From contig NZ_JABBNU010000004.1 in NCBI RefSeq assembly GCF_012926615.1, positions 372,001 through 436,000 on the forward strand: a stretch of 64,000 nt of DNA, in the 5' to 3' direction. Under the pieces are notes generated by a model. That model was not told where the DNA came from and did no database searches. It worked only from the letters and a program-made list of their open reading frames with translations. The stretch comes from Marinigracilibium pacificum. Its GTDB lineage: Bacteria > Bacteroidota > Bacteroidia > Cytophagales > Cyclobacteriaceae. Every line of letters begins with the position of its first letter. Positions within the stretch are counted from its first letter, which is position 1. Position numbers and translations under genes: made by a program. Positions 10,018-57,057 of the stretch are shown here, in pieces.

Positions 10018-12402
10018 TTGTTAGACCGGTTAAAGCATATTTTTAAATCTAAAAATTCAAACTCAGAGCCAATATTTGGTGATGAGCAGATTAGCAGATT
10101 TGTAAGTTATCTGGTTTATAATGTTGAAAATATAGAGTCTAACCCATTACTTAAAGAAAAGGTAAGGGAGATTAACAAGCTAGAACCAAAGGACAAAAAG
10201 AATTTCTTAGCCGGATTATATTTACTTTTTGAAAGGAATATCTTTTCAGATCCTAAATTTGCAACTGAAACTGATAAGAAGAACTTCAGAGAAGATTTCA
10301 AAAGCAAATTCCCAACCATTAGTCAGACCCCTGAGATGTCATTAATATTTCAGGAAAGGATAATTCAGGAAAAGCTAATTTGTATATTATTCCTAAAGAA
10401 ATTAATCCAAAACAGTTTCCATTCATTTGATTCATCCGGAAAAGGTTATATAAAGAATATAAATGATTATCTGGATGAATTAACCAGTAACATAAACTCA
10501 TTAAAAGCTGACAAATCCAAAAAGGTAATCGGAAAATTGAAGACATACACTAGTGAGATCTTCAACAGGTTACATAATAAAGTTGGAAAGAAATTAGCTA
10601 CAGAAATTTTTCAAGGTGTATATAATTTCATGGCAGACAATTATCGTTTGCTTAATTCATTTCATGAAGTAATTGTAATCATTCCTGAGGAAGTACTTAA
10701 TGAACAGCAAATAGGTATGCTTAGTAAAAAGCATATGCAAAACATGCTTGTTGATAAAGTAGGAAATCTAGAAGCTGTTAATACCCGGTTAAATGAGGAG
10801 ATCCGTGACAGAAAGAAAGCTGAAGCCGCACTAAAAGATAGTGAGCAAAGGCTAGCACAAATCATTGGATCTGCAATGGATGCCGTGGTAATCTTTAACA
10901 GCTCCGGAATTATCATGGAATGGAATAAACAAGCTGAAATTCTACTTGGATATTCGAAAGAGGAGATTATAGGCAAGCAGGTTCATAAAACAATTCTACC
11001 TGATATTGAAATAACTAAAAATGAGAATGATGAACCGATGATCAAGATCGGAGATCAATTTCCAATAAACACAAATAACCTTCGTATTGAGCTTAAATCA
11101 GTAACAAAATCAAATACGGAAATTGAAACAGAATTATCAATCTCACCAATAAGCTATCATGACGAAAAGATATTTAGTGCTTTCGTAAGAGATATTACTC
11201 AAAGAAAAAAATACGAAAGGGAAATTCTGGATGCAAAAGACAAGGCAGAACAAGCATCTATTTCCAAAGCTCAATTTCTTTCTACGATGAGTCATGAAAT
11301 CAGGACTCCGCTTAACGCAGTAATAGGAATTTCAAATTTGCTTTTGAAATCCAACCCTAGCAAAGAGCAGATTGAAGACCTGAAAATATTAAAATTCAGT
11401 GGTGAAAATCTTCTGTCTATTATCAATGACATTCTGGATTTTAATAAGATTGATGCAGGAAAAATTGAATTAGAAAAAGCTCCATTTAATATAAAAACAG
11501 TCATTAACGGGGTTAAAAGCTCGTTATCAACTAAAGCTTATCAAAAGAACCTTCCATTAGTTCTTTATGTTGATGATAACCTGCCTGATGTAGTTGTTGG
11601 GGATAGCACCCGATTAACACAAATCCTGACTAACCTAATTAATAACGCCATTAAGTTCACTCATAAGGGCTCTGTAACCATTGCAGTTTCAGTAATTTCA
11701 AATGAGGAAGACGAAATTGAAATAAGGTTTTCGATACGTGATACAGGTATTGGTATTTCTACTGAAGAGCAAAACAAGATATTTGACAGTTTTAGTCAGG
11801 CATCAAGCAGTACAACAAGAAAATATGGCGGTACTGGCTTAGGACTTTCTATATGCAAAAAGCTTCTAGAACTTCAGGATAGCAACCTTATGTTAGAAAG
11901 CGAAATAGGAAAAGGCTCTGAATTCTTTTTCACATTGAAGTTTGGCAAATCAGATATCCAGATTGCTCCTGAAGAATTAAACATTAATGATGACAAAAAG
12001 GATCTTGCCAAAGCGAAAATACTGGTTGCCGAAGATAATAAAGTAAATCTATTAATTGCAGTAAAATACCTGAACCGCTGGAATGCTATAGTCGACACAG
12101 CTGAAAATGGTATTGAGGTAATTGAGAAGTGCAAGAAAAATGATTATGATCTTGTTTTAATGGATCTACAGATGCCTGATATGGATGGTATAGAAGCCAC
12201 AAAGCAAATTCGATCATTGAACAACAAGAAATTCCAAAGCTTACCAATCATTGCCTTAACAGCATCTGCGATGATGGAGGTAAAAAGACAAGTATTAGAA
12301 GCCGGAATGAATGACTTTGCAGCAAAGCCTCTTAATCCGGAATTACTTTACGAAAAGATTTATAATCATATCTTTGAAAACAAGGAAACTATGTCGATAT
12401 GA
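10018..12402 (+). CDS. Cytoplasmic PAS hybrid sensor histidine kinase/response regulator
   Basis: A 794-residue protein with no transmembrane segment. Its order is an unrecognised helical N-terminal region (about 1-240), a short coiled coil, a PAS domain (about 270-395), HisKA with MSHEIRTPLN (His near 426), HATPase (about 515-645, with DTGIGIS and GGTGLGLSI) and a C-terminal receiver (about 670-790; LMDLQMPDMDG phospho-acceptor Asp, later AKPLNP Lys). The start is TTG at 10018. There is no in-frame ATG between it and the upstream stop at 9961, and the next ATG would remove over 100 residues. No output regulator is adjacent. The stop abuts the convergent holA stop. Confidence 0.9.
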   Translation: MLDRLKHIFKSKNSNSEPIFGDEQISRFVSYLVYNVENIESNPLLKEKVREINKLEPKDKKNFLAGLYLLFERNIFSDPKFATETDKKNFREDFKSKFPTISQTPEMSLIFQERIIQEKLICILFLKKLIQNSFHSFDSSGKGYIKNINDYLDELTSNINSLKADKSKKVIGKLKTYTSEIFNRLHNKVGKKLATEIFQGVYNFMADNYRLLNSFHEVIVIIPEEVLNEQQIGMLSKKHMQNMLVDKVGNLEAVNTRLNEEIRDRKKAEAALKDSEQRLAQIIGSAMDAVVIFNSSGIIMEWNKQAEILLGYSKEEIIGKQVHKTILPDIEITKNENDEPMIKIGDQFPINTNNLRIELKSVTKSNTEIETELSISPISYHDEKIFSAFVRDITQRKKYEREILDAKDKAEQASISKAQFLSTMSHEIRTPLNAVIGISNLLLKSNPSKEQIEDLKILKFSGENLLSIINDILDFNKIDAGKIELEKAPFNIKTVINGVKSSLSTKAYQKNLPLVLYVDDNLPDVVVGDSTRLTQILTNLINNAIKFTHKGSVTIAVSVISNEEDEIEIRFSIRDTGIGISTEEQNKIFDSFSQASSSTTRKYGGTGLGLSICKKLLELQDSNLMLESEIGKGSEFFFTLKFGKSDIQIAPEELNINDDKKDLAKAKILVAEDNKVNLLIAVKYLNRWNAIVDTAENGIEVIEKCKKNDYDLVLMDLQMPDMDGIEATKQIRSLNNKKFQSLPIIALTASAMMEVKRQVLEAGMNDFAAKPLNPELLYEKIYNHIFENKETMSI

Positions 12403-55844: not shown

Positions 55845-55855
55845 TAAAATAGAAA

Positions 55856-55967
55856 TGCTGTTCGATATGTTCTGAAAGGACATGTCGAACCTATTAATAA
55901 AAGGGGTTTTGAAACCCCGATTCATTCCAAGCTCCAGATGCGCAAAAGCTAAGATCTAGAACAACAT
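55856..55967. repeat. RAYT-associated mini-element R1
   Basis: A 112-bp unit bounded by TGCTGTT and an imperfect AACAACA. It holds three hairpins in order. H1 is a 13-bp stem with G-T wobbles and loop GAA (TTCGATATGTTCT against AGGACATGTCGAA). H2 is GGGGTTT against AAACCCC. H3 is TCCAGATG against a decayed GATCTAGA around an ~12-nt loop. It is the first of five copies with a ~129-bp period and begins 12 bp after the acnA stop, where H1 or H2 might also act as a terminator. Confidence 0.85.
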
Positions 55968-55984
55968 TTCGTATATATTCAACT

Positions 55985-56097
55985 TGCTGTTTGATATGTT
56001 CTGTAAGGACATGTCGAACATCTTAATAAAAAGGGGTTTTGAAACCCCGAGTCATTCCAAGCTCCAGATGCACAAAGGCTAACATCTAGAACAGCAT
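55985..56097. repeat. RAYT-associated mini-element R2
   Basis: A 113-bp copy bounded by TGCTGTT and AACAGCA with the same three hairpins. H1 has loop GTA; H2 is perfect; H3 (TCCAGATG against CATCTAGA) has one mismatch. It is separated from its neighbours by 16-17-nt AT-rich linkers that are themselves alike (TTCGTATATATTC). Confidence 0.85.
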
Positions 56098-56113
56098 TTC
56101 GTATATATTCGAC

Positions 56114-56807
56114 TGCTGTTTGATATGTTCTGAAAGGATATGTCGAAAAAAACACTAATAATCACTTAATTCAAGAATACTTTCTCCATAGCCATAAATC
56201 TCGGCACAACTACTATTTAAATAGTGTTCTTCTCTTTCTACTATCCCCGCTCTCACTGGATTACTGTGAATGTAATCCATTTTTTGTTCCATAAACTCTT
56301 TTGTTAATATCTCCTTAGCGTGATAACCTTTGCCCCATAATTTAACTTTATCTTCATCTCTAAGTAGCCATAGAAGCCAATTCTTCCTACTTTCTTTCCC
56401 ATTATTTTGAATTGCTTTAATAATTTTACTTGAAGTGAATTTTTTAAAATCTCTAATTATATCACTTAAATTTCCTTTCTCACTACTTACAATCAAATGT
56501 AAATGATTTGACATGATTACCCATGAATATATTTCTAACCCTTTATTTATTTGACAGAACTTAAGACTTTCAATTAAAATATTTATATAATCTTGTCTAG
56601 TAAAGACATCCACCCATTGATTTACTGTTATAGTAATAAAATGTGTAGCATATTGATCTCTTATTCTATATTCAAACCCCATTAATTTTATTTTTAGTTG
56701 ATAAATAACAATATATAAAACTAATAATTAATTAAAATAAAAAAGGATCTAAGATCCAATAATATTCCAAGCTCCAGATGCGCAAAGGCTAACATCTGGA
56801 ACAGCAT
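56114..56807. mobile_element. RAYT/IS200-like element R3, the gene-bearing copy of the repeat unit
   Basis: This 694-bp unit starts with TGCTGTT and H1 (56114-56147), exactly like the small copies. It then contains the transposase gene on the minus strand and an AT-rich leader. It resumes with H2 and H3 (56745 onward) and ends in AACAGCA. The transposase gene thus sits between hairpins 1 and 2 of a repeat unit. H2 here is GGATCT against AGATCC instead of GGGGTTT against AAACCCC: both arms changed and pairing was kept. It is interpreted as the autonomous element from which the ~112-bp copies derive. Confidence 0.78.
56155..56682 (-). CDS. REP-associated tyrosine transposase (RAYT, IS200-like Y1 family)
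   Basis: A 175-residue HUH single-strand transposase. The HUH motif HLH is at residues 60-62 (MSNHLHLIV), and the catalytic Tyr is probably Tyr137 in DYIHSNPVRAG, the characteristic RAYT C-terminal motif. Such enzymes bind and cleave hairpin (REP) DNA and are usually single-copy per genome. The length is normal for the family and the frame is intact, so it may be active. It is transcribed opposite to acnA and in the same direction as the GH97 gene. Both ends are flanked by hairpin repeats, its expected substrates. Confidence 0.9.
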   Translation of the reverse strand: MGFEYRIRDQYATHFITITVNQWVDVFTRQDYINILIESLKFCQINKGLEIYSWVIMSNHLHLIVSSEKGNLSDIIRDFKKFTSSKIIKAIQNNGKESRKNWLLWLLRDEDKVKLWGKGYHAKEILTKEFMEQKMDYIHSNPVRAGIVEREEHYLNSSCAEIYGYGESILELSDY

Positions 56808-56823
56808 ATTGTAAATATTCAAC

Positions 56824-56935
56824 TGCTGTTTGATATGTTCTGAAAGGACATGTCGAACTTATTAATAATAGGGGTTTTGAAACCCCGCCTTATTCCAAGC
56901 TCCAGATGCGTAAAAGCTAACATCTGGAACAGCAT
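56824..56935. repeat. RAYT-associated mini-element R4
   Basis: A 112-bp copy bounded by TGCTGTT and AACAGCA. H1, H2 (GGGGTTT/AAACCCC) and H3 (TCCAGATG/CATCTGGA) are all intact. It is the best preserved small copy, directly after R3 with a 16-nt linker. Confidence 0.87.
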
Positions 56936-56951
56936 CATGTAAATATTAAAC

Positions 56952-57057
56952 TGCTGTTCGATATGTTCTGAAAGGACATGTCGAACCTATTAATAAAAGG
57001 GGTTTTGAATCCCCGATTCATTCCAAGCTCCAGATGCGCAAAAGCTAACATCTGGAA
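56952..57057. repeat. RAYT-associated mini-element R5 (right end truncated)
   Basis: This copy starts at TGCTGTTCG with intact H1 and H3. H2 has one mismatch (AATCCCC). The terminal AACAGCA is missing: after TCTGGAA the sequence runs into the flank of the GH97 gene, 32 bp before that gene's stop. Confidence 0.82.

Follow-up and report, generated by a model that had tools for sequence, protein, structure and literature searches.

How do REP and REPIN elements originate, and why are genes for REP-associated tyrosine transposases (RAYTs) kept when the genes themselves do not move? Both questions are raised by a locus of Marinigracilibium pacificum at which a RAYT gene stands within a tandem array of hairpin-bearing units. 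The locus lies in a stretch of 64,000 nucleotides, here called the window (contig NZ_JABBNU010000004.1, positions 372,001 to 436,000); the window's genome is G000, and G001 and G002 are same-genus genomes. We think it probable, on balance, that we are dealing with a REPtron: the RAYT is stationary, and the REP hairpins on its two sides are also arrayed as gene-less tandem doublets by RAYT-guided, one-end-anchored local amplification.

What does the array consist of? Five units of about 111 bp lie in tandem (Table 1), beginning with TGCTGTT exactly where the first-pass annotation had placed them; the spacings are 129, 129, 710 and 128 bp, and its period of 128-129 bp, apart from an enlarged third copy, stands as given. 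The linkers, which it had described as conserved and 16-17 nt long, are indeed homologous to each other, and measured from the base that follows the final A of CARCA up to the next TGCTGTT their lengths are 18, 17, 17 and 17 nt. Each unit opens with the foot TGCT and continues with H1 (GTTYGATATGT/ACATGTCGAAC), an AT linker, H2 (GGGGTTTTGAAACCCC) and H3 (TCCAGATG/CATCTGGA), the last in inverse orientation and with a terminal AACAGCA, the complement of H1's foot. The unit ends in the complement of the foot with which it starts, which makes it an inverted REP doublet that encloses a third hairpin: a REPIN/BIME-type doublet of two REP hairpins, feet outward, with a small hairpin between. The foot is TGCT, and the canonical REP foot GT[AG]G is absent. 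H1 and inverted H3 are both present in units 1-4, H3 being degraded in unit 1, and unit 5 runs from CATCTGGAA into unrelated sequence with no CAGCA; the last unit likewise ends at CATCTGGAA without the CAGC foot in G001 and G002. Pairwise unit identity is 75-92% when the gene copy is joined without its gene. Patterns for H1 and for H3, each allowing up to 3 mismatches, hit the same five places in the window, and 100 shuffles yielded no match. TRF reports two separate arrays, which are the halves on either side of the gene, and elsewhere in the window a 15-bp tandem repeat of 2.4 copies (10345-10380). Covariation in H2-H3 is modest, with both-sided changes in 3 of 14 pairs, a count lowered by four window units that fit H2 one column off; no shuffle of 500 reached the covariation score, and 67 of 500 reached the pair number.

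Table 1. Coordinates, in the window, of the hairpin array and its RAYT gene
Feature	Positions	Strand	Basis or remark
Unit 1: H1 REP hairpin with TGCT foot (55856-55890), H2 (55903-55918), H3 inverted REP, degraded	55856-55966	+	
Linker 1	55967-55984	+	homologous linkers at 56097-56113, 56807-56823, 56935-56951
Unit 2, gene-less; H2 56033-56048	55985-56096	+	
Unit 3 left end: H1 of the gene-bearing copy, the downstream REP of the RAYT	56114-56147	+	
RAYT gene, 175 aa, Y1 HUH transposase	56155-56682	-	Pfam PF01797, NCBIfam NF047646; alignment; fold
Unit 3 right end: H2' (GGATCTAAGATCC, terminator-like on the minus strand) and H3, the upstream REP of the RAYT	56745-56806	+	
Unit 4, gene-less; H2 56871-56886	56824-56934	+	
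Unit 5, gene-less, without right CAGCA foot	56952-57057	+	two same-genus genomes show a similar right boundary
19-nt direct repeat (16/19) with 56717-56735, bracketing the gene	56151-56169	.	

The gene, which is on the minus strand, lies between H1 and the middle hairpin of unit 3; this position is as first annotated, with the qualification that the fit is not precise: this copy exceeds the period by 581 bp, the gene itself is 528 bp, and the middle hairpin is GGATCTAAGATCC in place of the GGGGTTTTGAAACCCC of the gene-less units. The gene-less units correspond to the gene's two ends without equalling their exact sum. Two inverted REPs flank the gene, H1 downstream and H3 upstream, with an outward TGCTGTT foot on each.

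Judged from its sequence, the gene is a RAYT, a Y1 HUH transposase related to IS200/IS605. The protein scores 36.2 bits against Pfam PF01797 (Y1_Tnp; cut-off 23) and 115.3 against NCBIfam NF047646 (REP-associated tyrosine transposase; cut-off 80), falls below the cut-off of the IS200 model, and is one of 27 members of alignment A3, all of which match the RAYT model at E <= 0.001. Its predicted fold (mean pLDDT 91.3) has as best structural match 4er8 (E 7.7e-9, TM 0.69), which is TnpAREP with a bound REP hairpin. The HLH at residues 60-62 contains the HUH histidines H60 and H62, found in 76 of 76 aligned relatives, and the putative catalytic tyrosine is Y137 (75 of 76). Profiles, fold and HUH residues thus agree with the original identification of the element as a RAYT. 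TnpAY1 subclass 2.6 (Bertels group 5) is characterized in PMC6006769 by NH[LIV]H, YIH[QN]NP, an SS motif, about 179 aa and occurrence in Bacteroidetes. The window protein has NHLH, YIHSNP (S for Q/N), SS at 157-158 and a length of 175 aa, and so in length, motifs and host group it appears to fit this subclass, except that it has WG for the subclass's WQ dipeptide, which 37 of the 76 relatives carry. The gene is single copy and not mobile, by the evidence of its orthologous position in G001 and of its own genome, where seven further RAYT-like matches have 30-46% identity, one with an internal stop.

Are the units dispersed through the genome or found only here, as the first-pass annotation asked of its ~112-bp unit? 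Complete units of at least 90% identity occur in the window's genome at this locus only, so that the high copy number and dispersal of canonical REPs are not seen among close complete copies. Diverged units (73-79%, E < 0.02) lie at eight other places, six on contig C7 and one each on C34 and C23. A RAYT search of the genome gave no match on C7 or C34, though both carry diverged units; C23 has two matches, the nearer about 27 kb from the diverged unit. Units without any RAYT, across many genomes and in unrelated order, had been named as a refuting finding, and within this genome the units of C7 and C34 are in part such a case. C7 also holds (L037:11126-13078) a 338-bp tandem array of 5.7 copies, in which a relative of this unit is fused with the REP of a second RAYT family; an integron-type (attC) array on C7 was considered and dropped, as the 338-bp array is two REP families with no ORF of at least 80 aa inside. 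At least 49 matches to the unit of this second RAYT exist in the genome, a figure that takes in its own array and comes from scoring 40 of 50 candidates. In both G001 and G002 the second RAYT is found at a syntenic position, and local repeats accompany it each time.

What has become of the locus in related genomes? Comparison of copy number in relatives, which had been suggested at the outset, gives five units in G001 and one gene-less relic in G002. In G001 the order acn - five units - GH97 is that of the window (acn, aconitase, and GH97 are named from Pfam matches), and a 78%-identical RAYT again stands in the third unit, which has lost H1. In G002 a gap of about 200 bp separates acn from GH97, and it holds a single H2-H3 relic and no RAYT gene. 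The window's array starts 11 bp past the acn stop, and these bases (55845-55855) are without the hairpin and T-run found after acn in G001 and G002.

Mean H2-H3 identity is 83.5% within G000 (73.9-91.3), 89.3% within G001 (81.2-98.6) and 72.0% between them (65.7-79.1), the within-G000 and between-genome ranges overlapping; for H1 the means are 84.7%, 95.7% and 72.4%. Position-matched pairs of G000 and G001 units (68.7-74.6%) are no closer than other pairs. Since the average identity of units is higher inside one genome than across the two, they postdate the species split or have been homogenised since, and the gene has persisted. With dN 0.14 and dS 1.56 between the G000 and G001 genes, dS being near saturation, the RAYT gene is evidently under purifying selection. 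The comparison suggests that the array turns over while the gene stays. A REP of another family is carried by linkers L1, L2 and L4 of the G001 array (L078:5594-6830), and L3 is without it, resembling an empty site; the 39-nt core of this foreign REP also occurs beside a G002 RAYT (L090). Most simply, one insertion was spread by array turnover. The L090 region (G002:C2:241000-260500) has three RAYT matches in 20 kb, of which one has an internal deletion and another is split in two and contains stops.

Is the arrangement peculiar to one genus? We assembled 147 RAYT loci, 76 of them for distinct proteins of at least 150 aa (90 hits, from the window's genome and relatives) and 71 from 80 named loci; the loci are mutually related, and L090 and L091 are one gene pair counted from both sides, so counts over them are not independent. 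Gene-less pairs of both ends occur within 4 kb at 47 of 143 assessable loci, the window among them, and at 1 of 159 controls, which were pseudo-genes set within the same loci; the other four loci had too little flank. Cyclobacterium roseum (L226) and Pedobacter yonginense (L261) have the same architecture with quite different unit sequences. A second full-length RAYT lies within 3.2 kb of the first in L243 (Bacteroidota MAG SSA2, 99%) and L273 (Pedobacter suwonensis, 98%), which is unusual for genes described as single copy.

Hairpin density and feet were compared at 83 of the 147 loci (at least 50% identity, or 170 bits). Perfect hairpins number 3.27 per kb within 300 bp of a RAYT and 0.39 per kb beyond 2.5 kb, a contrast of 8 times that is inflated by the far stretches being richer in coding DNA. 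Of 159 near hairpins, 85 are flanked by GCT, GTT or ACT, compared with 18 of the 150 far ones; the p of 2e-15 is optimistic because the set was picked after the surveys had been viewed; GCT alone, the first motif noticed, gives 50 of 159 against 11 of 150. In the 71 additional loci alone, GCT faces outward at 23 of 158 and inward at 13 of 158 (p 0.055, marginal), and among those of at least 50% identity at 21 of 98 and 11 of 98 (p 0.040), a test blurred by neighbouring units, which face both ways in 300-bp flanks. The near-versus-far comparison is the stronger of the two, yet it pools both sets of loci.

Pieces of the gene itself are found beside it in relatives. When each gene was searched against its own flanks (4 kb per side; same strand, at least 85% identity, under 480 bp aligned), 43 fragments of 85-100% identity were found at 26 of the 147 loci, the full-length copies at L243 and L273 being left out. 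All save two are terminal, 25 at the 3' end and 16 at the 5' end, and in size they extend from ends of 24 bp up to large truncated copies (L155; L198, a copy interrupted by a run of N). Close to the RAYT of L275 (Chitinophagaceae bacterium LY-5) there are another nine repeats, each containing the gene's last 74-88 bp (81-92%), and eight of them are on its downstream side. Of 29 distinct junctions that could be read, from 22 loci, 11 have a hairpin end no more than 10 nt away, against 68 of 2501 random nearby points (2.7%); with perfect stems only, the figures are 9 of 29 and 62 of 2093, and 18 of the 29 junctions have no hairpin by the criteria used. In Chryseotalea sanaruensis a segment of 205 bp is duplicated, beginning two bases beyond the foot (outside GCTGTTCGACATG) and reaching 110 bp into the gene from its 3' end; the junction shows 0 nt of homology. 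Homology is 0-2 nt at the four cleanly readable loci (L080, L094, L173 and L219), L275 being uninformative here as it repeats its own junction. No common base was seen by eye on the gene side of the junctions.

How might such structures be made? The RAYT, an HUH enzyme with one tyrosine, would bind a single-stranded REP hairpin through its stem and its foot, which is TGCT in the window and GCT, ACT or GTT in relatives, and would itself, we infer, nick the strand at a point close outside the foot. Those RAYTs that have been studied cleave single-stranded REP at CT, and one of them at CA as well, on the 5' or the 3' side of the stem-loop, and then rejoin it; in one of them the foot helps to choose the cut site (PMC8266576, in the passages covered); for the group to which this RAYT belongs, no biochemistry is reported in the literature covered. 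If the cut end were joined to the matching point of the next unit, one unit and its linker, that is one 128-129-bp period, would be gained or lost; were it joined to an internal point of the element, a duplication with one fixed and one variable end would result. Repeated rounds would rebuild the array next to the gene, and the gene would stay, kept by selection. The window locus presumably took the same route as its relatives. In four units, the gene copy included, the middle hairpin with its T-rich minus-strand tail scores as a terminator, and there are 6 terminator-like sites in all against 0.6 expected; upstream of the RAYT, this hairpin may act as a terminator-like insulator against read-through from GH97.

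The main rival to RAYT-guided amplification is replication slippage. Slippage or template switching at hairpins, together with unequal crossover, might amplify the units and homogenise their ends by host processes alone, the RAYT being the neighbour that first brought the hairpins. The whole period, linker included, is repeated in register, as such processes would have it; homogeneity within an array is an outcome of unequal crossover, recombination between units explains the gain and loss of whole periods, and the foreign REP sits in three of four G001 linkers. Slippage, too, can place a breakpoint at the foot of a hairpin. One would not expect from host processes, however, the crowding of hairpins around RAYTs (even allowing for the inflation noted above), the near-absence of junction homology at the four readable loci, or the finding, in several species, of one breakpoint just outside the REP foot and another that varies within the gene. 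We regard this rival as rather unlikely, and the best of those considered.

Did the RAYT gene instead insert into a tandem array that already existed? The first-pass annotation had left the choice between insertion inside the array and parentage of it. The gene is AT-richer than the units (28.8% against 39% GC), and it has one half of a unit on each side and is bracketed by an imperfect direct repeat of 19 nt, whose 16/19 match was reached by 1 of 300 Markov-resampled flank pairs. That repeat, however, overlaps the gene's last codons, and the gene copy differs from the others by more than a clean insertion would leave, having its own H2' and 53 bases beyond the gene. The architecture recurs, moreover, with the different unit sequences of Cyclobacterium roseum and Pedobacter yonginense, and at the 26 related loci nearby repeats contain gene ends, so that the gene must come first. 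Insertion is thus improbable, and we prefer parentage because of those gene-end repeats; the direction is read from relatives, none of the window units carrying a gene remnant. That the array persists chiefly because it serves the host, supplying terminators or mRNA 3' ends to the convergent acn and GH97 rather than transposon ends, is very improbable: the region does lie between convergent genes, four middle hairpins score as terminators on the minus strand and the window lacks the hairpin and T-run that follow acn in both other genomes, but G002 has one relic only, termination does not call for an inverted doublet whose feet match, and the RAYT gene is itself bordered by this doublet.

RAYT-guided amplification, then, is the reading that we carry forward. 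Bacteroidota RAYT loci in a number of species have the parent gene, partial copies and clean units side by side. As a tentative generalization, less secure than our reading of the window locus, Bacteroidota RAYTs may be stationary amplifiers whose own ends are duplicated in place, with one break beside a GCT-type foot and the other anywhere in the element, such that parent, fragment intermediates and clean miniature units coexist in an array whose renewal outpaces the splitting of species. A candidate foot motif is available and breakpoints can be read, so that the origin of REPINs becomes testable by strain comparison and a cutting assay.

How does the locus compare with systems already described? 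The first-pass annotation contrasted the tandem array with the dispersed REP/BIME pairs usually described, a contrast that fails, since the architecture has a precedent in Gammaproteobacteria: tandem BIME-2 and REPIN clusters beside RAYTs have been published (PMC2817692, PMC3116915). Nunvar 2010 (PMC2817692) reported that one third of rayt genes have BIMEs next to them, that in four species REPs cluster around rayt genes, and that four rayt 3' ends have been captured in BIMEs, and proposed a rolling-circle model; the passages covered do not mention Bacteroidetes. Bertels and Rainey 2011 (PMC3116915) described REPIN clusters beside each RAYT of one strain. The main-text passages of PMC6006769, to which our coverage was confined, do not describe tandem arrays or a GCT-type foot for subclass 2.6, and a GCT-type foot, a third hairpin in the unit, captures of both 5' and 3' gene ends, and evidence of turnover from orthologs were not found in the literature passages covered. 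A literature search joining 'repetitive extragenic palindromic', 'concerted evolution' and transposase found nothing.

We conclude, within the literature covered, that the locus is a Bacteroidota version of a known RAYT/REP element. With the REPtron or RAYT plus BIME-2 systems, E. coli yafM and Stenotrophomonas Smal4 (PMC2817692), it shares a RAYT between inverted REPs with tandem BIME modules adjoining, and the Bacteroidota loci share with them the capture of rayt 3' ends and the clustering of REPs near some rayt genes. In those systems, however, the foot is GT[AG]G, where here it is GCT, ACT or GTT; our unit carries a third hairpin in its middle; the gene ends captured in Bacteroidota loci include 5' ends in addition to 3' ends; and orthologous arrays are here compared across species. 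The REPINs of Pseudomonas fluorescens SBW25 (PMC3116915) are likewise inverted REP doublets in tandem clusters, one beside each of three RAYTs, but their doublets form a dispersed genomic family, whereas here close copies are private to the RAYT locus. In its protein the locus resembles subclass 2.6, Bertels RAYT group 5 (PMC6006769), with which the window gene shares its Bacteroidetes host, a length near 179 aa, NH[LIV]H, YIH.NP and Ser-Ser after the core, differing in WG for WQ; that subclass, too, lacks GT[AG]G and is flanked by 'atypical secondary structures' with copies elsewhere.
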